A DNA stretch of 41,524 nucleotides, from positions 1-41,524 of the forward strand of contig JAEPQF010000014.1 of the NCBI GenBank assembly GCA_017640685.1, given 5' to 3'. The DNA is from Hyphomicrobiales bacterium (lineage in GTDB: Bacteria > Pseudomonadota > Alphaproteobacteria > Rhizobiales > HXMU1428-3). Under the pieces are notes generated by a model, which saw nothing but the letters and a program-made list of their open reading frames with translations, searched no databases and was not told the DNA's origin. Positions within the stretch are counted from its first letter, which is position 1. Each line of letters opens with the position of its first letter. Shown here piece after piece: positions 3,801 through 39,044 of this stretch. The position numbers were made by a program, and so were the translations under genes.

Positions 3801-4137
3801 TCGTGTTTTTTTCTCTTTCACGGCTGTTCCATGAGCGTAAGCTCTGGGTCTACGAGGTGTGGCATTAAATGCCGGACGCTTTTAATTGTGGTTTAGCTTG
3901 TCCTCTCTTTTAGTGCGGCTTCAGTTTCCTTTTTTGTTCTTCAGATGCCCAATAAGCATCCGCAAAAGCAACCGGGGTTTATTTTCTCTCACGTGCTGTA
4001 ACAAAAAAGCTGTCGCACTGCGAGGGCGCAGTGCTTTAGTTTGCCCATTATCAACCGCGCCATCACCTACATTTTTCGCTCTCAGTAGGTTCGTAGTTTT
4101 GGAGGAGCAAGTAGCTTGTTAAGTTATGTCTCCCGGA
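3801..4137. repeat. Palindromic element cluster 1 (hemY/cobL convergent gap)
   Basis: This 337-base gap between convergent genes is filled with short palindromes. At 3805-3848 is a copy of a second repeat (TTCACGGCT.TTCCATGAGC) also found at 12703-12743. GGCAT/ATGCC pair near 3861-3872. At 3913-3977 a nested unit occurs: an outer CTTCAG arm and GCAACCGGGG enclose a complete inner unit with GATGC (3944-3948) and GCATC (3956-3960). GCACTGCG/CGCAGTGC form a perfect hairpin at 4015-4034. A further unit lies at 4031-4060 (GTGC, TTTA, then a TTTGCCC... arm, ending CGCGC). A reading frame across 3886-4122 is an artefact of these repeats. No separate classical terminator with a T-tract was found. Confidence 0.75.
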
Positions 4138-7748: not shown

Positions 7749-8195
7749 TTAGTTTAATTCGGTAATTCTTTGATGGGTTGCGCCGAATGATGGTGTGCGT
7801 GCAACGACACCTTTTTGAAAACTAACTGGGCGATCTTTCCAAGCAGGGATGCCATCTTCTGAAGAGGCGTAAAGCTTGGCGAATGTGATGATGTCTTCTG
7901 TTGCTGTTTTAGGGTCTAGATCACCGACTGTGAAGGTAAACTTACCTGGACTGACGAGCGAGACAGTTGCTGCCCTTGAGCAAACACTCATACATTGCAT
8001 CATTCGAACCCGGAAGCGCTCATTTAGGCTTTGTGAGATTAGAGCATCTTTTAAGTTTTGTGCGAGATCTTTACCAGGACGTTCAGGATTATCTGGACTG
8101 GCATTTTGAGGCCGACACGCGCCGCAGATATAGATTTCAAGTTCTGGTGTGGTCTCTGTTTGTAAAGATGTCATTACTTTAGCTTTGTCATTCAT
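7749..8195 (-). CDS. DUF1636 putative metal-binding protein
   Basis: A 148-residue small protein of the DUF1636 family, often found inside alphaproteobacterial cobalamin clusters. A Cys pair near the N-terminus (ICGACRP) and a second pair (QCMSVCSRA) resemble the cysteine pattern of thioredoxin-like 2Fe-2S ferredoxins, so metal or cluster binding is likely but unproven. The remaining sequence (VSLVSPGKFTFTVGDLDP, ending GVVARTPSF) matches the family as I know it. The start may be the ATG at 8195 or at 8174 (MTSLQ). Its position between cobB and cobC suggests a role in cobalt handling or corrinoid synthesis; no reaction can be assigned from sequence. Confidence 0.8.
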   Translation of the reverse strand: MNDKAKVMTSLQTETTPELEIYICGACRPQNASPDNPERPGKDLAQNLKDALISQSLNERFRVRMMQCMSVCSRAATVSLVSPGKFTFTVGDLDPKTATEDIITFAKLYASSEDGIPAWKDRPVSFQKGVVARTPSFGATHQRITELN

Positions 8196-8420
8196 TTAGA
8201 GTGGGTTAAAATTTTGGCGACAGTGTCGTGAAAATGCTAAAACGTCAAGTCTGCATGTGGTGAAAGTGATAAATTAAGTGTTATGGATAATTACAAAAAT
8301 TATAATTAGTGAGATTTTAGCCTTGTTGATTGCGGAAAATTAAAGGTTGGGGCATAGTTAGTGCTTAGACCTTGAGTGTATTCTTTTTCTATTCGGTCAT
8401 TTTGTTTGGAGTTTTAGATC

Positions 8421-10528: not shown

Positions 10529-12029
10529 AAAAGCCACTTATCTTTTCAATTTCTTTGATGTTTAAAGAGTCTGCTATGTGGTTGGCTAGTTCATTTAGAG
10601 TGACTTCGACTTGTAATTTATAGGCCGTTTGGCTTTCAAAATTAGCCGATATTTTTTGAAGAAATTTCTTTCTAAATTCATCTGACTGGAAGAGGCCATG
10701 TAGATAAGTTCCCATGACTTTGCCGGTTGAGTTTTGAGCGCCTTCCAAAATTTTACCTTCATCAGATTTTTTAAAAAGGGGATTGCTTAAATCTGGCCCT
10801 GATGTTTTGCCCATATGCATTTCATAGGCAGTTAGATTAGAATTGGTTTCGATAAATTCAGCGTTGACATCTATTAAGGTTTTTTGCGGCTCAATTGTTG
10901 TTTCGATATTCAATAGATTTAGGCCGTCTATTTCACTTAAAGACCCTTCTAGATATTCAGGGTCTTTGATGGTTTTTCCGAGCATTTGATAGCCACCACA
11001 AAGGCCGAGGACATAGCCACCTTTTCTCACATGTTTAGCAATATCTATGTGCCAACCTTCTTCATAGAGAGTTTTTAAATCTGCAATGGTTGCTTTGGAG
11101 CCGGTGAGGATGATGAGGTCTGTGTCTTCTTCGATGAGTTCGCCCTGTTTGATAAGTTTGAGCTCAACATTCGGCTCTGCTGCGAGTGGGTCTAGGTCAT
11201 CAAAGTTTGCGATACGAGGAAGTACAGGGACTGAGATTTTTATTTGTTTGGTGGAGCTTGGCTCAGTGTTTGAGTTATTTTCTAAATCTTGGCTATCTTC
11301 TGCGGGCAAGAGGTTCGCCTTTGGAAACCAGGGGCACATGCCGATGCTGGTCCAGCTTGTTTTTTCTGTGATGAGACTTTCAGCTGATGTAAAGAGGGCT
11401 GGGTCACCTCTGAATTTGTTGATTATATAACCTTTGATGAGATTGATCTCATTTTTGGGTAAGAGAGCATGAGTGCCGACAATGCTTGCAAGGACGCCGC
11501 CCCTGTCGATGTCAGCTGCTATGATAACCGGAACATTGGCAGCTTCGGCAAAGCCCATATTGGCGATGTCATTTTCGCGTAAGTTCATTTCTGAGGCGGA
11601 ACCGGCGCCTTCGACAATTACGAGATCTGCTTCTTGTTTTAAGAGCTCAAAACTTTCCAACACTTTTGGCATGAGTGTTTTTTTCAAGTCATAGAAATTT
11701 TTAGCTTTATATGAACCAAGTCTTTTGCCTTGTACAATCACTTGTGAACCGCATTCACCTTCTGGTTTTAAGAGAACCGGGTTCATATGTATGGTTGGTT
11801 TTGTTTTGCAGGCTAAAGCCTGGAGTGCTTGAGCTCTGCCTATTTCGCCGCCATCTTCGGTGACAGCGGCGTTGTTTGACATGTTTTGGGGCTTGAATGG
11901 ACGAACTGTGAACCCATGGTTCGTGAAATAACGACATAGTCCTGCAACGAGCATTGATTTGCCCACATTTGAGCCGGTGCCTTGGATCATGAAGGCTTTG
12001 CAAGCTTTTGTTTTGCTGGAATCTGTCAC
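10527..12029 (-). CDS. cobQ: Cobyric acid synthase CobQ
   Basis: CobQ carries out four successive glutamine- and ATP-dependent amidations (b, d, e, g) of adenosylcobyrinic acid a,c-diamide, giving adenosylcobyric acid. The N-terminal domain has the P-loop MIQGTGSNVGKSMLVAGLCR, then FKPQNMSNNAAVT and the EGAGSASEMNLRENDIANMG motif. The C-terminal amidotransferase domain includes the nucleophile YVLGLCGGYQMLG (near residue 345) and the terminal motif VMGTYLHGLFQSDEFR. Its 500 residues match the usual length. A Ser/Asn-rich stretch around residues 230-245 is a likely linker. It is the last gene of the cobN-cobO-cobQ minus-strand series, 36 bases after cobO. Confidence 0.95.
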   Translation of the reverse strand: MTDSSKTKACKAFMIQGTGSNVGKSMLVAGLCRYFTNHGFTVRPFKPQNMSNNAAVTEDGGEIGRAQALQALACKTKPTIHMNPVLLKPEGECGSQVIVQGKRLGSYKAKNFYDLKKTLMPKVLESFELLKQEADLVIVEGAGSASEMNLRENDIANMGFAEAANVPVIIAADIDRGGVLASIVGTHALLPKNEINLIKGYIINKFRGDPALFTSAESLITEKTSWTSIGMCPWFPKANLLPAEDSQDLENNSNTEPSSTKQIKISVPVLPRIANFDDLDPLAAEPNVELKLIKQGELIEEDTDLIILTGSKATIADLKTLYEEGWHIDIAKHVRKGGYVLGLCGGYQMLGKTIKDPEYLEGSLSEIDGLNLLNIETTIEPQKTLIDVNAEFIETNSNLTAYEMHMGKTSGPDLSNPLFKKSDEGKILEGAQNSTGKVMGTYLHGLFQSDEFRKKFLQKISANFESQTAYKLQVEVTLNELANHIADSLNIKEIEKISGF

Positions 12030-12065
12030 TGTAATTTAACTTTGGTTTTGAGACTGATGGAAGCT

Positions 12066-12677
12066 TTAGTATTCAATGCCTTTTTGTGCTTTGATGCCTT
12101 GTTCTTTAAAGGGGTGTTTGATCAATTTCATCTCTGTTACTAGATCTGCGATTTCAATTAATTCCGGTTTGGCATTTCGACCGGTTACTATGATGTGTTT
12201 GTCTTGTGCTCTGTTGGCCAAAGTTTCTAACACTTCGTTCAAGTCTAGATAATCATAACGAAGGGCGATGTTGAGCTCATCTAGTACCACCATCTTGATG
12301 TTTGGATCTTCGATAAATTCTTTTGATTTTTCCCAAGCTTTATTCGTGACTTCGATATCTCTTTCTCTGTCTTGTGTTTCCCAGGTGAAACCTTCGCCCA
12401 TAGCGTGGATTTCAACTTGCTCTGGAAATTTCATGAGGACATCCCGTTCTCCTGATTGCCAATCACCTTTGATAAACTGCACGATGCCAATATTAAAGCC
12501 GTGGGTGATGCCACGCATGACCATACCAAAAGCAGATGATGATTTGCCTTTACCTGTGCCGGTATGAACAATGAGCAGGCCTTTGTCAGCAGTTTTCTCT
12601 GCCATTTTTTTATCATGCAGTTCTTTGCGTTGCACCATTTTTTCATGGTGGCGTTCACTATCAATTGGTTTACTCAT
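12066..12677 (-). CDS. cobO: Cob(I)yrinic acid a,c-diamide adenosyltransferase CobO
   Basis: Transfers the 5'-deoxyadenosyl group of ATP to cob(I)alt, forming the Co-C bond. It belongs to the CobA/CobO/BtuR type, recognised by the P-loop GLLIVHTGTGKGKSSSAFGM, the VQFIKGDWQSGE segment, VVLDELNIALRYDYL, and VTGRNAKPELIEIADLVTEM. It has 203 residues, the normal length. The charged N-terminus (SERHHEKMVQRKELHDKKMAEK) is also usual for CobO. It lies between cobN and cobQ on the minus strand; the 269-base gap to cobN contains palindromic elements, so it may have its own promoter or be read through from cobN. Confidence 0.95.
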   Translation of the reverse strand: MSKPIDSERHHEKMVQRKELHDKKMAEKTADKGLLIVHTGTGKGKSSSAFGMVMRGITHGFNIGIVQFIKGDWQSGERDVLMKFPEQVEIHAMGEGFTWETQDRERDIEVTNKAWEKSKEFIEDPNIKMVVLDELNIALRYDYLDLNEVLETLANRAQDKHIIVTGRNAKPELIEIADLVTEMKLIKHPFKEQGIKAQKGIEY

Positions 12678-12702
12678 TATGTTTGGTCCTTTTTATTGGC
12701 GC

Positions 12703-12890
12703 TTTTTTCTCTCACGGCTATTCCATGAGCTGAAGCTCATGGGCCTGCATTTTTTGGTTGTGCTTTAGGTTGCCCATTTGCAACCGCACTATGCGGGGCT
12801 TGGCCCAGGCTGCGCTGGCGCTTCGCCATGTCCCTTAGCCCTTTTTTGTCGTTGTAGTTGTCCACTAACAACTGGACTAGGGCTGAGCTC
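12703..12890. repeat. Palindromic element cluster 2 (cobN-cobO gap)
   Basis: The second copy of the TTCACGGCT-like repeat, here with a perfect hairpin CCATGAGCT/AGCTCATGG (12723-12742), is followed by a textbook unit at 12760-12789: GTGC, unpaired TTTA, GGTTGC, loop CCATTT, GCAACC, GCAC. After a GGCG/CGCC hairpin (12817-12827) comes a nested structure. AGCCC (12837-12841) and GGGCT (12880-12884) enclose AGTTGT, loop CCACTA, ACAACT (12856-12873). No ORF is credible here. The cluster sits between co-oriented cobN and cobO and would be in any read-through message. Confidence 0.75.
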
Positions 12891-12946
12891 CTTCTTCGTA
12901 TAGTTTGTTATTTGTTTGTATTCAAAGTTAGCGTTGTAATATCAAA

Positions 12947-15900
12947 TTACTCTGCTTTTGAGTATAGTGTTTCTAGATAATGGTAAGCGCTATTGCGTTT
13001 GGGTTTCCAGAGGCCGCGCTCTATAGCTTGGCCAAATTGTTTTGCGATCTCTTCCATAGCGGGTTTATTAGATGTTTGCAAAAACTCTCGCACTTCTTCA
13101 TCAACCAAATAGGCTTCAAACAAGCTTTCAAAGTGGTGTTCTTCAACAGCGTTTGTTAAAGATGCGAAAGCACTGAGGTTGGTGACGGTGGCGAGGATTT
13201 CACTGGCGCCTTTAGAGCCGTGGCGCTGGATGGATTTGATCCATTTAGGATTTGCGGCACGACCGCGGACGATTTTGGCAATCTCTTCGCTTAAGGTTTG
13301 TACCTTTGGATTTTCTGGATTACTGTGATCATTGTGATAAATCTCAGGGGCCTTGCCACTTACGCTTTCAACCGACGCTGAGAGGCCGCCTTCAAATTGA
13401 TAGAAATCTTCACTGTCTAAAATGTCAAATTCTCTGGTGTCTTGGTTATGCACCACTAGGTTGGTTGATTTGAGCAAGGCTTTGAAATGCTCAAGCGCTT
13501 CTTTGCCATCTGTTTCATTTTCTTTTGCCTGGCCATAGGTGTAGCTGCTTGCTTTAATATATTGGTCTGCAAGCTCTTCTCTATCCGTCCATTGGCCTTG
13601 GTGGATCATGTCTTTGAGGCCGGCGCCATAGCTCATGTGAGCGGAACCGAAAATACGTGCTTTGGCTCTCCTATCCGCAACAGGTTCTTCGAGACCTTCT
13701 TTTTGAAGGGTGGCTTTGCGTTTTAAATAGGCTGCGCGCAAAGGGTTGGCGTTTTCATTTTCATCCAATTCAGCAACGGCATTGATAGCGCTTTGCAAGA
13801 GATCGATTTGAGCTGGGAACGCATCTCTGAAAAAGCCAGAAATACGAAGTAAAAGATCAACCCTTGGGCGGTTTAATTCTGACAAGGGAATGATTTCAAA
13901 GCCGGTGACGCGGCGCGAGGCGCTGTCCCAAGTTGGCCGTGTGCCGATGAAGGCAAGGGCTTGGGCGAGATCATCGCCGCCAGTGCGCATGTTGGATGTG
14001 CCCCATGCAGAGAGAGCGATTTGTTTGGGCCATTCGCCATTGGCCTGGGTGTAGGCTTTAATGACCGTTTCTGCTGATTGTTTGCCTAGGCGCCATGCGG
14101 TTTCTGTTGGGATGGTGCGGTTGTCTATGGTGTAGAAGTTGCGCCCTGATGGGAGCACATCTAAGCGGCCACGAGTTGGGGCTCCGGAAGGGCCAGGCTC
14201 AATGAACTTGCCGCCCAAGGCTCTCAAAACGCCATCTAATTCTTTAGAGGCACAGTCTTCTAGGAGTGGGCTTAGATGGGTTTTGATATAATCCAATACG
14301 GGGCTGGTTTCTTTCCAATCTGTATCAGGTTCGTGTGTCCCATTGACGAGTTGCTCGGCAAGAATTTCTAGTCTCTCGACTGTATCACCATTTGTGCGCC
14401 AGGATTGGTCTGTGATTGTTTGCAGAACTTCTGGCTTTGGGCCTTGCCAAGGCGTTGCCATTTCAGTGATTAAAGGATCAAAATTTAAGCACAGATCGTT
14501 TGCAAGGGCGCGCAGAATTGATTGATGCTCAGTTTTTGCTGTGCTGATAATTTCGCCTTCTTCTTTTCTGATTTCTCCGCGGGGGAGCCTTGTTAACGCT
14601 AAGAGCAGATTGGTTTTTTGCTCGTTCTTTGGTGCTTCGCCGAAGATGTGCAAGCCATCTCTGATTTGAAGTTCTTTTAATTCACAGAGGAAATTGTCGA
14701 GCTTTTGTAGTTTGGTGTCATCGCAATCGGTATCTTTAATATCGCAATCTTTTGATAGCCCCATGGATTGAGCGAGGTTGATAATGTCTTCACCCAACAG
14801 TTTCGTGCGTCTTGGGTCTACGCCGGCAGCTTCGTAATATTCATCGACCAGACATTCTAGATCTTTTAACGGGCCGTAGCTCTCTGCTCTCGTTAGCGGC
14901 GGTGTCAGGTGATCAATGATGACGGCATTAGTACGTCGTTTGGCTTGGGCGCCTTCGCCAGGGTCGTTGACAATAAAGGGATAAATATGAGGGGTTGGCC
15001 CAAGGATGGCTTCAGGCGCGCAAGACTTGCTGAGCGCAAGTGCTTTGCCGGGGAGCCATTCTAAGTTGCCATGTTTGCCCATATGGATGATGGCATCCAT
15101 TTTAAACTGGTCTCGCAGCCAAAAGTAAAAAGCGAGATATTCATGAGTTGGTGGGATGGTAGCATCATGGTGTGAGAGCTTGGCATCTAAGCCGCTGCCG
15201 CGCCCAGGTTGCACGCCAACGATTATACCCCCAAGTGAAATGGTGCGGATGAGAAAGCTGTTATCTTCAGTAATAAATGAAGGGTCTTTTTCTGGCAGTC
15301 CCCATCGGTCTACAATCTCATCTTTGAAGGTTTCATCGAGAGTGTTCCAGGCCTTTAAGTAATTAGTTAATGAGTAGTGATGCCATTTCGATTTATCTGC
15401 TGTGGCGTGTTGTAATTTCTTTATGAGCTCATCGCCGGTTTCAGGAATGGAGTTGAGCTCATAACCTTCTTTCTTCATTGCTTCTAAAAGCTTGATGGTG
15501 CCAGCCGGAGTATCTAGCCCGACGCCGTTGGCAATGCGGCCATCATTTGAAGGGTAGTTTGATAAGATAAGAGCGACCTTGCGGTTTTCAATTTTTGTGT
15601 TTTGTAGTTTGGTCCAGCTTGTAGCTAATTGCGCAACGAACTTTGTTCGGCTCGGTTCAGCTTTATGACCAACAAGTGAGGTCTCTACATTTTCATCTCT
15701 GCCGAAATCTGATTTGAATGAGATTGCTCTTGTGGTGATGCGGCCATCGATCTCGGGTAGGGTGACATTCATGGCGATGTCTCTGGAAATGAGCCCTCTT
15801 GGGTTCTCAGCCCATGTGTCTTTATTTGAGCCTGAAAGAATGGCCTGGAATACCGGTGTTTCGGACCTATCAAGGATTGTGCCTTGCCAGTCTGTGCCTG

Positions 15901-16852
15901 GTTTTGAGATTGCAAAGCTGGTGGTGTTGATGATGGTCGCTGGTTTTGCGTCTTTGAAAATGTCAGCGATGATGTCTTTGGCGACCTGATCTTTTAAGCT
16001 GCTTGCGAAAATGGGAAGTGGGTTTAGGCCTTCTTCTTGCAGATCTTTGATGAGTTGATCGATGGGCTCTAGATCACCTGATTGCAGTAAAGCGCGGTAG
16101 AAGGTGATTGAGCAAACTTGTTTGTACTTCAGTTGCCCACCAGCAACCGCACTATTGATTTTTGATAAATCCCAATGCGATTTAATATCATCAATTGATT
16201 TGATTGTGCTCCCTGGCCAATAGATACCGGCTTTAGGCAGTGGCTGAGCAGGGAGTGGTTTGGTGATTTTTTCAGGCTCGATAAGATGTGCGCAGTGGTT
16301 TAGGAAATTGCTGTAGTTCTCTGGGCCGCCTTCAACCAGGTATGACCAGAGCTGGTCTGTTGTTTCCCCGCTTATGGTTGAGTAGGCATCTAAGGTTTCA
16401 TCTTTATATGCGGAGCCAGACATAACCGCGAGCTTGATATTTTCACCTCTGCAAAGACGGGTGAGTTCATCAAGGCCATATTGCCAATAAGACGGGCCAC
16501 CAAGTACACGCACGATGATGAGTTTGGCGTGTTTTAAGGTTTGCTCGATATAAAGATCAACAGAGTAATTGTGATTGAGGTTGAGCAAATTGGCCAGCCT
16601 AAGAGATTCTTTTGGTCCCTTCAGTTGCTCTTTTTTATTGCCTTCAGATGCCGACAATGCATCCGGCTTAGCAACCGGGGCGTGATGACCGTTAGACTGA
16701 GTGCTTTGTCGAATCTGTGAATAGGCTTTTGCAAGGCCGGCAATTTCTGTGTCAGCAGATGTGAGCACGACGATATCGCCCGGCGTTTGGGCCAGGTCAA
16801 TTGGGTCTTTGCCGTCGTCTATACCGCCAGCTTGTGCCGTCAATAAATGCAA
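12947..16852 (-). CDS. cobN: Cobaltochelatase large subunit CobN, with two in-frame repeat insertions
   Basis: Large subunit of the ATP-dependent aerobic cobaltochelatase (with CobS/CobT chelatase subunits elsewhere) that inserts Co2+ into hydrogenobyrinic acid a,c-diamide. Motifs: HMGKHGNLEWLPGK (near residue 595) and GGDDLAQALAFIGTRP to PRVDLLLRISGFFRD (near 950). The start is proposed as TTG at 16852: GGAG lies 6 bases upstream and the protein then begins MHLLTAQ, as usual for CobN. The ATG at 16864 contributes that GGAG and would give 1305 residues. Two palindromic elements lie in frame, at residues 58-79 and 234-243, in segments that look like surface loops between conserved blocks (before SLRLANLLNL, and before ITFYRALLQSGD). 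Protein function is probably retained, because the flanking motifs are intact. cobO and cobQ follow. Confidence 0.94.
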   Translation of the reverse strand: MHLLTAQAGGIDDGKDPIDLAQTPGDIVVLTSADTEIAGLAKAYSQIRQSTQSNGHHAPVAKPDALSASEGNKKEQLKGPKESLRLANLLNLNHNYSVDLYIEQTLKHAKLIIVRVLGGPSYWQYGLDELTRLCRGENIKLAVMSGSAYKDETLDAYSTISGETTDQLWSYLVEGGPENYSNFLNHCAHLIEPEKITKPLPAQPLPKAGIYWPGSTIKSIDDIKSHWDLSKINSAVAGGQLKYKQVCSITFYRALLQSGDLEPIDQLIKDLQEEGLNPLPIFASSLKDQVAKDIIADIFKDAKPATIINTTSFAISKPGTDWQGTILDRSETPVFQAILSGSNKDTWAENPRGLISRDIAMNVTLPEIDGRITTRAISFKSDFGRDENVETSLVGHKAEPSRTKFVAQLATSWTKLQNTKIENRKVALILSNYPSNDGRIANGVGLDTPAGTIKLLEAMKKEGYELNSIPETGDELIKKLQHATADKSKWHHYSLTNYLKAWNTLDETFKDEIVDRWGLPEKDPSFITEDNSFLIRTISLGGIIVGVQPGRGSGLDAKLSHHDATIPPTHEYLAFYFWLRDQFKMDAIIHMGKHGNLEWLPGKALALSKSCAPEAILGPTPHIYPFIVNDPGEGAQAKRRTNAVIIDHLTPPLTRAESYGPLKDLECLVDEYYEAAGVDPRRTKLLGEDIINLAQSMGLSKDCDIKDTDCDDTKLQKLDNFLCELKELQIRDGLHIFGEAPKNEQKTNLLLALTRLPRGEIRKEEGEIISTAKTEHQSILRALANDLCLNFDPLITEMATPWQGPKPEVLQTITDQSWRTNGDTVERLEILAEQLVNGTHEPDTDWKETSPVLDYIKTHLSPLLEDCASKELDGVLRALGGKFIEPGPSGAPTRGRLDVLPSGRNFYTIDNRTIPTETAWRLGKQSAETVIKAYTQANGEWPKQIALSAWGTSNMRTGGDDLAQALAFIGTRPTWDSASRRVTGFEIIPLSELNRPRVDLLLRISGFFRDAFPAQIDLLQSAINAVAELDENENANPLRAAYLKRKATLQKEGLEEPVADRRAKARIFGSAHMSYGAGLKDMIHQGQWTDREELADQYIKASSYTYGQAKENETDGKEALEHFKALLKSTNLVVHNQDTREFDILDSEDFYQFEGGLSASVESVSGKAPEIYHNDHSNPENPKVQTLSEEIAKIVRGRAANPKWIKSIQRHGSKGASEILATVTNLSAFASLTNAVEEHHFESLFEAYLVDEEVREFLQTSNKPAMEEIAKQFGQAIERGLWKPKRNSAYHYLETLYSKAE
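16124..16152. repeat. Palindromic element inside cobN (single)
   Basis: Unit GTAC, unpaired TTCA, GTTGC, loop CCACCA, GCAAC, C, GCAC. On the coding (minus) strand it reads in frame as AVAGGQLKYK, at CobN residues about 234-243. The same frame (GGG CAA CTG AAG) is used by the copy at the C-terminus of the secreted protease (37818-37845), giving the shared peptide GGQLK. Confidence 0.85.
16617..16679. repeat. Nested palindromic element inside cobN
   Basis: The outer unit pairs CCC, GTTGC (16624-16628) with GCAAC (16671-16675), GGG. In its loop lies a T-run and a complete inner unit: GCC, TTCA, GATGC (16647-16651), loop, GCATC (16659-16663), C, GGC. The 63 bases are exactly 21 codons, so the frame of cobN is preserved. 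They encode a hydrophilic loop (for example SASEGNKKEQLKG) between the AGLAKAYSQ and SLRLANLLNL blocks. Confidence 0.85.
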
Positions 16853-16864
16853 AAAAAGCTCCAT

Positions 16865-17171
16865 TTTAGTTGCGCTTCAGATGCCCACAAAGCATCCGCG
16901 CTATTTCGAGTTTGAGGGCGTTAAGGCTGAATTTTTAACCCCTCAAATATGTCTTATATTCCACGGGCCTAAAAATTCACCCTTGCCTACTCACGAACAA
17001 AATCTGAAACTTTTTTGGATCGAGCTTTGAGGCTGGAAAATAGAAAGATTAGGTTTAATTGATAGGTGGAAGTTTGTCTATTGTATAGCATGGATAATTT
17101 TGATTAATCTTGAGGGTAAAGTTTTGCCATTTTAAGGTGATTATATACATGGAAATAAGAAGGGTAATTAA
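16865..17171. other. cobN upstream gap with palindromic element and hairpin
   Basis: A single repeat unit fills 16872-16901 (GCGC, TTCA, GATGC, loop CCACAAA, GCATC, C, GCGC), within 20 bases of the proposed cobN start. A second strong inverted repeat lies at 16912-16946: TTGAGGG, a bulged C, GTTAA, paired with TTAAC and CCCTCAA. Both would be in the 5' leader of cobN if transcription starts upstream of them. I looked for the conserved B12-box (GCCACTG) on both strands here and did not find it. The remainder, to 17171, is AT-rich and must also hold the promoter of the plus-strand gene at 17172. Confidence 0.6.
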
Positions 17172-26443: not shown

Positions 26444-26658
26444 GCGCTTTAGATGTCTCTTTTTAGTGCGCCTTTAGGTTGCCCACAAGCAACCGGCGCG
26501 AAGCATCCGCAGATTTTCTTTTGTGCTTCAGATGTCTTTTTTAATACCCCTTCAGATTGCCCATTAGCAACCGGGGCTAAGCATCCGTACATTTTTATTA
26601 GCGCTTTAGACACTTTCTTATCTCCCTTTCGGTTTTCTAATAAAAACCGATCTAAAGC
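26444..26658. repeat. Palindromic element cluster 3, three nested units upstream of murJ
   Basis: This is the main content of the 401-base gap between murJ and oxyR. Unit 1 (26444-26510): outer GCGC, TTTA, GATGTC and GCATC, CGC enclose an inner unit GCGCC, TTTA, GGTTGC, CCACAA, GCAACC, GGCGC. Unit 2 (26523-26589): outer GTGC, TTCA, GATGTC and GCATC enclose CCCC, TTCA, GATTGC, loop, GCAACC, GGGG. Unit 3 (26603-26658): GCTTTAGA/TCTAAAGC enclose CGGTTTT, CTAATA, AAAACCG. An open frame across 26453-26785 is produced by the repeats (it would contain PQATGAKHP and PLATGAKHP) and is not called as a gene. The rest, 26659-26825, shows nothing distinct. Confidence 0.85.
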
Positions 26659-27716: not shown

Positions 27717-28046
27717 CAGTCTTTCTTATCATAAATGATGAAAAAATCAATTAGACCTTATAATACGATTTGCGCATGATTTCATCATTAATAATTATCA
27801 ATTGGTGATTTCAAATTTTTTATTTGAGAGTGATGAGGTTCTTTAAATATGAAGACACTCCTTTTGAATTCAAAAAGAGTGTCTTCATATTTTTGGTTTC
27901 AATTTGTCCAGGACATTTATTTAAAAAGTCTCGCCCTGTTTGTAGGTGATCATTATTTTGCGTTAATAGAGGTATAATGAGATCAGGGCGAGATCAGGGG
28001 GTAAATCATGGAACTTTAAGCCTTAAAGACTTATTTGTTCTTCTTA
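27717..28046. other. Intergenic region upstream of oxyR with two strong inverted repeats
   Basis: A 330-base gap without a credible ORF. The first part is AT-rich and should contain the oxyR promoter. Two inverted repeats follow: a nearly perfect palindrome at 27845-27893 and 10-base arms TCTCGCCCTG/CAGGGCGAGA at 27929-27938 and 27984-27993. Between the latter arms, GATCATTAT and ATAATGAGATC can pair further with a two-base bulge. It also holds a TATAAT sequence, without a clear -35 box. Both could be parts of small RNAs or 3' ends of the gene at 28047. Confidence 0.5.
27845..27893 (+). terminator. Long hairpin followed by T-run (possible terminator)
   Basis: AATATGAAGACACTC pairs with GAGTGTCTTCATATT, and the loop CTTTTGAATTCAAAAA is itself nearly palindromic, so the whole is a 22-base stem with one mismatch. 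TTTTT follows on the plus strand. There is no annotated plus-strand gene upstream, so if it terminates transcription in that direction the transcript would be a short RNA starting within 27720-27840. On the minus strand the T-run is weaker, but it could also end the transcript from 28047-28793. Confidence 0.55.
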
Positions 28047-31874: not shown

Positions 31875-32110
31875 TTTAGTTTGTGCTTCAGATGCCCACT
31901 AGGCATCCGCACTGTTTGTTTGCGCTTCAGGTTGCCTTTATTTGTTTTAGATGCCCACAAAGCATCCGCAAGTTGCAACCGCGCTGTTTAAGTAATGCTT
32001 CAGATGTCTTCTCTGTGTTTCAAAAGCCCTACTGAGCATACGTGAGAAGCACCTTCGCTGTTTGCTAAATGTTTCAGACGAATTGCTTCGTCTTGATGTG
32101 GTAAATTTAA
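31875..32110. repeat. Palindromic element cluster 4 upstream of the His/Tyr-rich gene
   Basis: A simple unit at 31883-31912 reads GTGC, TTCA, GATGCC, CACTA, GGCATC, C, GCAC. A nested unit follows at 31922-31984: outer GCGC, TTCA, GGTTGC and GCAACC, GCGC enclose TTTTAG-ATGC-CCACAAA-GCATC. Degenerate copies continue to about 32060, and AGACGAA-TTGC-TTCGTCT forms a perfect hairpin at 32076-32093. The remaining gap to the next ORF (32111-32411) is described separately. Confidence 0.8.
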
Positions 32111-37669: not shown

Positions 37670-37845
37670 AGTTACCACTTTTTTTGACGTTCCTTTAGGT
37701 TACTCACCGGTAACCGTTACGCCAAGCACGCTTTTAATTGTTCTTCAGTTGCTGGTTTTTTTAGTTGTTCCTTTAGGTTACCCACCAGTAACCGTCACTA
37801 AAACCGTGCTCCTAATTGTGCTTCAGTTGCCCACCAACAACCGCA
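37670..37845. repeat. Palindromic element cluster 5 (ilvA/protease convergent gap)
   Basis: Three clear units. At 37698-37715: GGTTAC, TCACCG, GTAACC. At 37776-37793: GGTTAC, CCACCA, GTAACC, itself inside a larger structure where GGTTTT (37754-37759) pairs with AAAACC (37800-37805) and AGCACG (37725-37730) with CGTGCT (37805-37810). At 37818-37845: GTGC, TTCA, GTTG, loop, CAAC, CGCA. The last lies in the coding sequence of the protease. TTTA or TTCA precedes each inner stem on the plus strand, as in all other clusters. Confidence 0.85.
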
Positions 37846-39044
37846 TTATTCAATTTGTCGAGTAGTTCTTTTGTTGGTAGGCCGATGGGTGTTAGGTTCA
37901 TTTTTTTCTCAAAGGCATAGATGGCTCTTTTGGTTTGCTTACCAAACTGACCGTCGATCTTACCTCTGTAAAGTTTCAGGGATTTTAGGCGTTCTTGAAC
38001 TTGCTTAAATTGATGAATATTTGTTAGGAGAGTTTCTTTTTGAAATCTCTCTAGGCCTTTTAGGAAAATTTTTGGCTGGACGGCAATGTTTGTTTCTTTG
38101 CCTGTTTTTAGTTTTTTGCGGCTGATGATTTTTCCTGTGAACCGATTGCGCCTGATGCGGAAATGCTCATATTTTAATGAGCCTAGATTAATACCAACGA
38201 CTTTATAATCCGCGCCTTTTTTAACAATAATTGGAGAACCAGATGAGCCTTTGAATGCGTCGCATGTGTGAGGCAAGAGCACGGCTTCTCTTATCATTTT
38301 TCTGCGCTGTTTTTTCATGAAAAAGGTTTTGTTATTGCGCGAGCGAATGCGGCACTTTTTTGAGTAGAGCCGCTCTGACATGTCTTTGTCGCCATGGTAA
38401 CCAATCATGAAGACATCATTCTTCTTTGCGGCTTTTTGTATCTCTCTTATTTTGGAGTTGCTGAATTTAAGTGTTCGTCCTTTGCAGACAGAATGGATTA
38501 ATTTCGTGAAAGCCCAATCTTGTTTTTGTGAATTGAGATTTCGTGCTGCAGCATAATTTCCTGAATAGATAGAGAGGCCCGGCATTTTTTGATGGACATA
38601 TTCCGGATAAGAAATGCGAGGTTTGTATTTGTGATTAAGAGGTGATTTTGTAAGTGCAGGGAGGACAAACATTGTCTTTGCTAAATTGAGGCGTTTGCCA
38701 ACTGTGGGGTTTCGTACAATACAGTGAGCGTTAGTTGCAACTATATTTGGTGCCACACAAAAGGCGGTGCAACGCCATCCTCTTTTACCTGGTTGGCCGA
38801 TCACTCCAACACCAGCGCCGAGCTGGTGGAATTTTTCAGGTAAGCTGGTGCGGTTATCTTTTCCAAGAACCGCTATTTTTTTCACGTGGTCTTGAGATAA
38901 TCCGTTCGGTGTTTTGATAGAGATATTTGAGCTGAGGGATTTTGCGTGGGATGAATTTGAGGAGGAGTTAACTGTTAAAAGACCAAAAAATAAAAGAAAA
39001 AAGGCAAGGCTGATTTTGCTTGTCTTAGATGTTTTATTTTTCAT
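37812..39044 (-). CDS. Secreted trypsin-like serine protease with peptidoglycan-binding domain
   Basis: A 410-residue exported protease. Signal peptide: basic KNKTSKTSK then ISLAFFLLFFGLLTV, with cleavage likely near AKS. The chymotrypsin-fold catalytic triad is visible: His in VAPNIVATNAHCIV (about residue 104), Asp in QKQDWAFTKL (about 175) and Ser in CDAFKGSSGSPIIV (about 267). A C-terminal PG_binding_1-like domain follows (VQERLKSLKLYRGKIDGQFGKQTKRAIY). The last 11 residues (NAVVGGQLKHN) come from a palindromic element, and the stop is at the edge of that element, so the native C-terminus may have been replaced. GGAG lies 8 bases before the ATG. It probably acts in the periplasm or at the cell wall; substrate unknown. 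Confidence 0.88.
   Translation of the reverse strand: MKNKTSKTSKISLAFFLLFFGLLTVNSSSNSSHAKSLSSNISIKTPNGLSQDHVKKIAVLGKDNRTSLPEKFHQLGAGVGVIGQPGKRGWRCTAFCVAPNIVATNAHCIVRNPTVGKRLNLAKTMFVLPALTKSPLNHKYKPRISYPEYVHQKMPGLSIYSGNYAAARNLNSQKQDWAFTKLIHSVCKGRTLKFSNSKIREIQKAAKKNDVFMIGYHGDKDMSERLYSKKCRIRSRNNKTFFMKKQRRKMIREAVLLPHTCDAFKGSSGSPIIVKKGADYKVVGINLGSLKYEHFRIRRNRFTGKIISRKKLKTGKETNIAVQPKIFLKGLERFQKETLLTNIHQFKQVQERLKSLKLYRGKIDGQFGKQTKRAIYAFEKKMNLTPIGLPTKELLDKLNNAVVGGQLKHN

Follow-up and report, generated by a model that had tools for sequence, protein, structure and literature searches.

The window analysed here, a stretch of 41,524 nucleotides, contains a cobN gene in which a short palindrome is read in frame, and the locus raises the question of how a hairpin became part of a conserved enzyme and whether, as an earlier note on this DNA proposed by analogy with Rickettsia palindromic elements, such insertions are tolerated in genes in only one frame and one direction. 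The core of the element, CTTCAGTTGCCCACCAGCAACCG (16127-16149, + strand), forms the hairpin CTTCA-GTTGC-CCACCA-GCAAC-CG and lies antisense in cobN, where the codons GCG GTT GCT GGT GGG CAA CTG AAG give AVAGGQLK. The site and the reading AVAGGQLKYK given in the earlier note stood; the residue numbers (234-243) were off by five, since counting from the ATG at 16864 places the peptide at residues 239-248. With the spacer and hairpin (Table 1), cobN has about 39 nt more than relatives with an empty site, and the resulting 13-residue insert (39 nt against G002 and G004; the eight genus members are referred to as G000 to G007) is missing in G001, G002, G004, G005 and G007. The note had named conservation of this segment in CobN of distant taxa as a finding that would speak against insertion; neither the solved CobN 9uk9 nor the CobN of five genus members has it, so it is not conserved there. 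The segment is a palindrome of a dispersed family that entered a tolerant linker recently and in frame. The CobN of G003 carries, at the same position, a longer insert built from copies of this element nested in one another, and the two inserts may have one shared origin. A BLAST search with 89 bases around the cobN element gave matches at 45 genomic positions (E<1e-3).

Table 1. Copies of the hairpin element and associated features in the window
Feature	Position	Strand	Remarks
Element in cobN, spacer and hairpin	16115..16153	+	core 16127-16149; codes for CobN residues ~239-248 (AVAGGQLKYK) on the minus strand
cobN (cobaltochelatase large subunit)	12947..16864	-	PF02514, 1211.6 bits; orthologues in 7 relatives; hosts two insertions
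Second cobN insertion, outer unit CTTCAGTTGCT...AGCAACCGGGG with inner unit nested in its loop	16620..16680 (about)	+	inner core 16642-16665; 31 residues
Copy just upstream of the cobN start	16875..16898	+	same site occupied in G001, G005, G007; missing in G004
Copy coding for the C-terminus of the trypsin-like protease (ORF 37812-39044, minus)	37821..37843	+	protein ends in NNAVVGGQLKHN, then stop
Intergenic cluster	37693..37794	+	copies 37693-37716 and 37771-37794, half copy from 37743
Nested copy	3918..3977	+	core 3939-3962 within a degenerate outer unit
Degenerate copy CTTTAGTTTGCCCATTATCAACCG	4034..4057	+	
6-bp-stem type copy CTTTAGGTTGCCCATTTGCAACCG, between genes	12763..12786	+	
Outer unit with inner copy in its loop	26447..26509	+	inner copy 26472-26495, common to G002 and G004
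Outer unit with inner copy in its loop	26526..26587	+	inner copy 26550-26573
Copy common to G002 and G004	31886..31909	+	same orientation in both
Outer unit CTTCAGGTTGC...GTTGCAACCG with inner copy in its loop	31925..31981	+	inner copy 31945-31968

The second cobN insertion, of 31 residues relative to G004, is missing in G002 and G004 and also in G001, G005 and G007, and was seen only in the genome under study; its outer unit is read as ..KKEQLKG and so, as the earlier note had it, also gives QLK. The copy upstream of cobN has orthologous sites on L043, L046 and L049, and its absence from G004 suggests loss or near-precise excision. The protease copy, which the note placed at 37818-37845, indeed shares strand and frame with the cobN element; it is not internal but supplies the last residues (NNAVVGGQLKHN) of a protein with trypsin and PG_binding_1 domains, the G004 orthologue of which ends in NIEIHKQKIFKQ. 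All well-supported copies in the window are on the + strand, and the genes run in both directions.

To what family do these copies belong? The pattern CTTYAGNTKCCCANNNNGCAWCCG, with up to 2 mismatches, gave 322 matches in the 3.5 Mb genome and 0 when the pattern was reversed as a control; the genome of this marine host bacterium thus holds at least 322 hairpin copies, far above chance. A first loose hairpin scan, whose control matched nearly as often as the real sequence, was dropped for a calibrated, structure-aware score, which, applied to 2.69 Mb drawn from stretches of the same genome and of relatives, returned 652 copies, compared to 36 for the control. The unit is about 35-45 nt long and consists of a T-rich tract, an outer stem (GCG/CGC, GTG/CAC, CCC/GGG and other variants), an internal loop with conserved TTYA/C and an inner stem, of the variants GATGC/GCATC or G(G)TTGC/GCAAC(C), whose loop starts with CCAC; a T-run stands just upstream in 64% of copies, compared to 20% of the intergenic background, and an A-run in 0.4%. 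In 233 copies picked by CTTYAG, CCA and CCG alone, so that the stems were left free, we found strong compensatory changes, both within the inner stem and at three pairs of the outer one. The outer pair -2/+25 was T-A in 106, C-G in 53 and G-C in 36 of these copies, and was paired in 197, compared to a mean of 85 and a maximum of 103 after shuffling; the inner A-T/T-A pair gave 225 against 172. Since both stems covary, the hairpin itself is the conserved feature. Folding energies of single copies were unexceptional, so that the structure rests on this covariation, and an Rfam search of the window matched no family.

By name, the carrier loci are from Hyphomicrobiales MAGs. High copy numbers occurred only within the genus, in G000, G002, G003, G004 and G007, with fewer in G005 and one or no copy at this stringency in G001 and G006; lower numbers were found in Filomicrobium, Hyphomicrobium and another Rhizobiales genome, and only three of 241 other genomes of the order had a match, a single one each. 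Some syntenic sites (31886 and 26472, both with G002 and G004) carry copies in common and others carry private ones.

The orientation of the copies follows replication rather than transcription. In the sampled contigs of G000, G002-G005 and G007, 217 of 221 strict copies matched the sign of the local T/A skew and 4 opposed it, whatever the gene direction and equally for intergenic copies. Neighbouring copies more than 2 kb apart had the same orientation in 72 cases and opposite orientations in 4, compared to 389:292 for genes. T/A skew was a good predictor, whereas G/C skew alone predicted orientation poorly (156:65), probably because gene direction disturbs it. On contig 1 of G005 all copies are minus from 45 kb to 1.18 Mb, where the skews are mostly negative, and on contig 2 all are plus and the skews positive; among the copies listed for contig 1 of G002, all are minus from 128 to 982 kb. 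The element strand carries the 16S rRNA and rplB of G002 and the rplB of both G004 and G061, which fits the CTTCAG strand being the leading strand, the rplB of G005, opposite to the elements on its contig, being an exception. The CTTCAG strand would then be the leading-strand sequence, that is, the sequence exposed as lagging-strand template. On the Filomicrobium chromosome CP051234 the copies stand 31:0 on one strand; we considered whether this was an independent phenomenon and rejected it, as skew is mostly positive all around and orientation tracks skew. As a separate observation on this record (CP051234.1, Filomicrobium sp. ih4, L139-L158; a 4.47 Mb MAG), T/A skew is positive in 19 and G/C skew in 17 of 20 stretches around the circle, unlike a two-replichore chromosome, and the deposited assembly may be mis-oriented.

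Near-perfect orientation at about one strict copy per 10 kb is what would be expected of a functional polar chromosome motif such as KOPS, Chi or AIMS, whose orientation is held by selection and not by the insertion mechanism. However, copies are nearly missing in G001 and G006 of the same genus and are often species-specific at syntenic sites, and a T-run with covarying stems is unexpected for a short protein-binding motif; we therefore regard this explanation as very improbable. The fixed orientation also bears on the earlier note, which had taken the shared strand of the cobN and protease copies as a sign of what genes tolerate: since the strand bias is tied to replication and is equal in intergenic copies, two window copies on the same strand are uninformative in this respect.

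We then asked what the genic copies themselves reveal. Only about 3% of well-scored copies lie inside genes, compared to 72% coding sequence, and the intergenic copies avoid divergent, promoter-bearing gaps (36 observed against 84 expected by length) and favour convergent ones. Strand and frame were tabulated for internal or C-terminal copies in Pfam-supported genes of several genomes, with two CobN-A sites that may be dependent; N-terminal matches (in LpxK, MoaE, an O-methyltransferase, Ffh, a sigma factor and others) were omitted because they are possibly untranslated leaders. The frame giving AVAGGQLK/ADALWASEA was used at 9 of 14 gene sites and at 9 of the 10 antisense sites, namely CobN twice, the CobN of G003, an Smr-domain protein, methylmalonyl-CoA mutase, the window protease, MscS, a LuxR-type regulator and a Cys/Met-metabolism enzyme; the remaining antisense site, in the G002 orthologue of the window protease, uses another frame. 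In intergenic copies the three antisense frames lack stops in 55%, 16% and 62% of cases, and against these frequencies 9 of 10 in the favoured frame has P=0.006. The four sense copies occupy all three frames, UvrB and an FHA-like adhesin sharing one, a glutamine amidotransferase using the second and a hydrolase C-terminus the third. The excess of antisense over sense sites (10:4) is not significant (P=0.12). A frame bias thus exists, is not exclusive and is partly a stop-codon effect.

These counts weigh directly on the explanation from which the question started, that the element is a Rickettsia-like protein-coding palindrome inserted into genes in one frame and direction, its peptide tolerated, which would also explain the shared strand of the window copies. 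The frame preference (9/14 overall; 9/10 antisense) and the recurrence of AVAGGQLK/ADALWASEA in CobN, the Smr-domain protein, methylmalonyl-CoA mutase, MscS and the LuxR-type regulator are in its favour, and in both systems a palindrome lies in frame in conserved genes (here CobN, the Smr protein, methylmalonyl-CoA mutase and UvrB). On the other hand, sense copies in three frames, the other antisense frame of the G002 protease and the equally fixed orientation of intergenic copies are not what it predicts. Rickettsia palindromic elements are 100-150 bp long (PMC2229807, PMC3767692), whereas this element adds 35-39 nt at clean sites, is genic in only ~3% of cases and has its direction set by replication; this distinction is drawn from published descriptions. 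We consider this explanation rather unlikely: of the earlier suggestion of 'only one frame and direction', the frame preference held, whereas exclusivity and a single direction in genes were not supported, and our results do not place the element among the Rickettsia elements. The genic copies show that a small hairpin can persist within a conserved enzyme in bacteria other than Rickettsia, and they allow the dominance of one frame to be tested quantitatively.

Evidence of insertion came from empty sites and from nesting. At the cleanest empty site, G002 L041:13451 compared with G004 (flanks 96% and 92% identical), the extra segment of 35 nt starts with its own T-run and occupies the loop of an inverted repeat that resembles a terminator. 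Between matching half-sites we counted 39 copies, compared to 17.6 (maximum 28) by shuffling, and several window copies lie in the loop of an older copy. No target-site duplication or clean target signature was recognisable at the empty sites compared, because the nearest relatives are only ~80% identical at the DNA level.

Size, structure and distribution recall REP elements, imperfect hairpins of 20-45 nt that are present in hundreds of mostly intergenic copies, rarely near promoters, with stem-defined subfamilies and clusters; REP/BIME families carry GTAG or CGTC tags and are associated with the RAYT transposase TnpA-REP (PMC3733652, PMC2817692), and REPs also occur in frame within tnpA-REP genes (PMC6006769). 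Mobilisation as a classical REP by a resident RAYT would account for the bulged hairpin, the copy number, the intergenic preference and the avoidance of divergent gaps, and IS200/REP enzymes work on the lagging-strand template (PMC6006769). However, neither a GTAG/GTGG nor a CGTC (TGTC/CCTC) tag is conserved at the foot of the hairpin, where the position profile is T-run + N(G/C)N + CTTYAG, and no inverted pairs (BIME/REPIN) were found, neighbouring copies having the same orientation and clusters being head-to-tail. The Y1/HUH transposase domain PF01797, for which E. coli as positive control gave matches, was not found in G000, G001, G002, G003, G005, G006 and G007 (seven of the eight genus members) or in the Filomicrobium and Hyphomicrobium/Rhizobiales carriers G061-G063; among the carriers checked only G004 and G064 had it. 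Within the genus, just two Y1_Tnp genes were found, at about 11499-15370 of G004 C1 (L159); they lie 3-7 kb from a wrongly oriented copy in an FHA-like adhesin gene (8183-8206), and no further hairpin copy was found in this stretch of 20 kb. Mobilisation by a resident RAYT, already weakened by these results, is improbable. The element also differs from REPs in its TTYA/C internal loop, its upstream T-run and its replication-oriented copies, and because it lacks the tag and the inverted pairs and, in most carriers, a Y1 gene, we file it as a variant of REP-like elements. Two other candidate sources were rejected: retron or group II reverse transcriptases, as RVT_1 occurs only in G000 and G005 and is mismatched with element abundance, and an autonomous parent gene between copies, as 31 genes flanked on both sides include no recurrent family other than one similar G000/G004 gene pair.

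A closer mechanistic parallel is offered by the ends of IS200/IS605 elements (IS608, ISDra2) and their non-autonomous derivatives, which have strand-specific hairpins, insert into the lagging-strand template and are oriented to the replication fork (PMC6006769). Our copies show the same strand specificity and orientation bias, though without paired left and right ends, without cargo and, in most carriers, without TnpA. The strand-specific hairpin, fork orientation, T-rich junction and loop nesting together resemble IS200/REP single-strand transposition, and the element may be described as a REP-like variant that would work in this manner. The cobN segment is thus probably one copy of a REP-like mobile hairpin that uses the single-stranded DNA of the replication fork to spread. 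A putative enzyme would recognise the folded single strand and insert the element into the lagging-strand template, with T-rich DNA or hairpin loops as preferred targets. The cobN insertion would have been tolerated owing to its linker site, a length that is a multiple of three, a stop-free antisense frame and a small Ala/Gly/Gln/Lys peptide, and purifying selection would have purged nearly all other genic insertions.

The main alternative to single-strand transposition is enzyme-free spread by replication errors, either by template switching at the fork or by hairpin-bearing Okazaki fragments annealing into T-rich gaps. Such errors would also keep the orientation to the fork and could yield T-rich junctions and tandem or nested arrays, and most carriers have no Y1 gene and no reverse transcriptase is consistently present. 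However, insertion occurred at sites without evident homology, and the lack of amplification in two close relatives suggests that a trans factor was lost; on balance we think this alternative unlikely, on a par with a resident RAYT. Within the preferred reading of single-strand transposition, a broader proposal is that these hairpins form a RAYT-independent class of the Hyphomicrobiales, inserted nearly exclusively into the lagging-strand template, preferably at T-rich DNA or loops, by a putative unrecognised transposase, and adding a standard peptide (ADALWASEA/AVAGGQLK) to proteins; this we put forward tentatively and with some doubt. How REP-like hairpins spread is still unsettled, and the only enzyme proposed for REPs is mostly missing in these carriers; the family allows a direct test of replication-coupled insertion and points to a further mobilising factor.

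Three minor observations concern neighbouring repeats and an outlying contig. Positions 12700-12880 of the window belong to a different dispersed repeat (CTCTCACGG...CATGTCC region), which is found again elsewhere in the genome, in some occurrences with a hairpin copy inserted. L137, a contig from IMG/VR with 70% GC that is classed as viral, bears seven members of the hairpin family, pointing both ways, and may be a bacterial fragment or a place where orientation is relaxed. Finally, positions 27845-27892 of the window form a near-perfect palindrome of 48 nt outside the element family, with two 24-nt arms that are 96% complementary and have no spacer.
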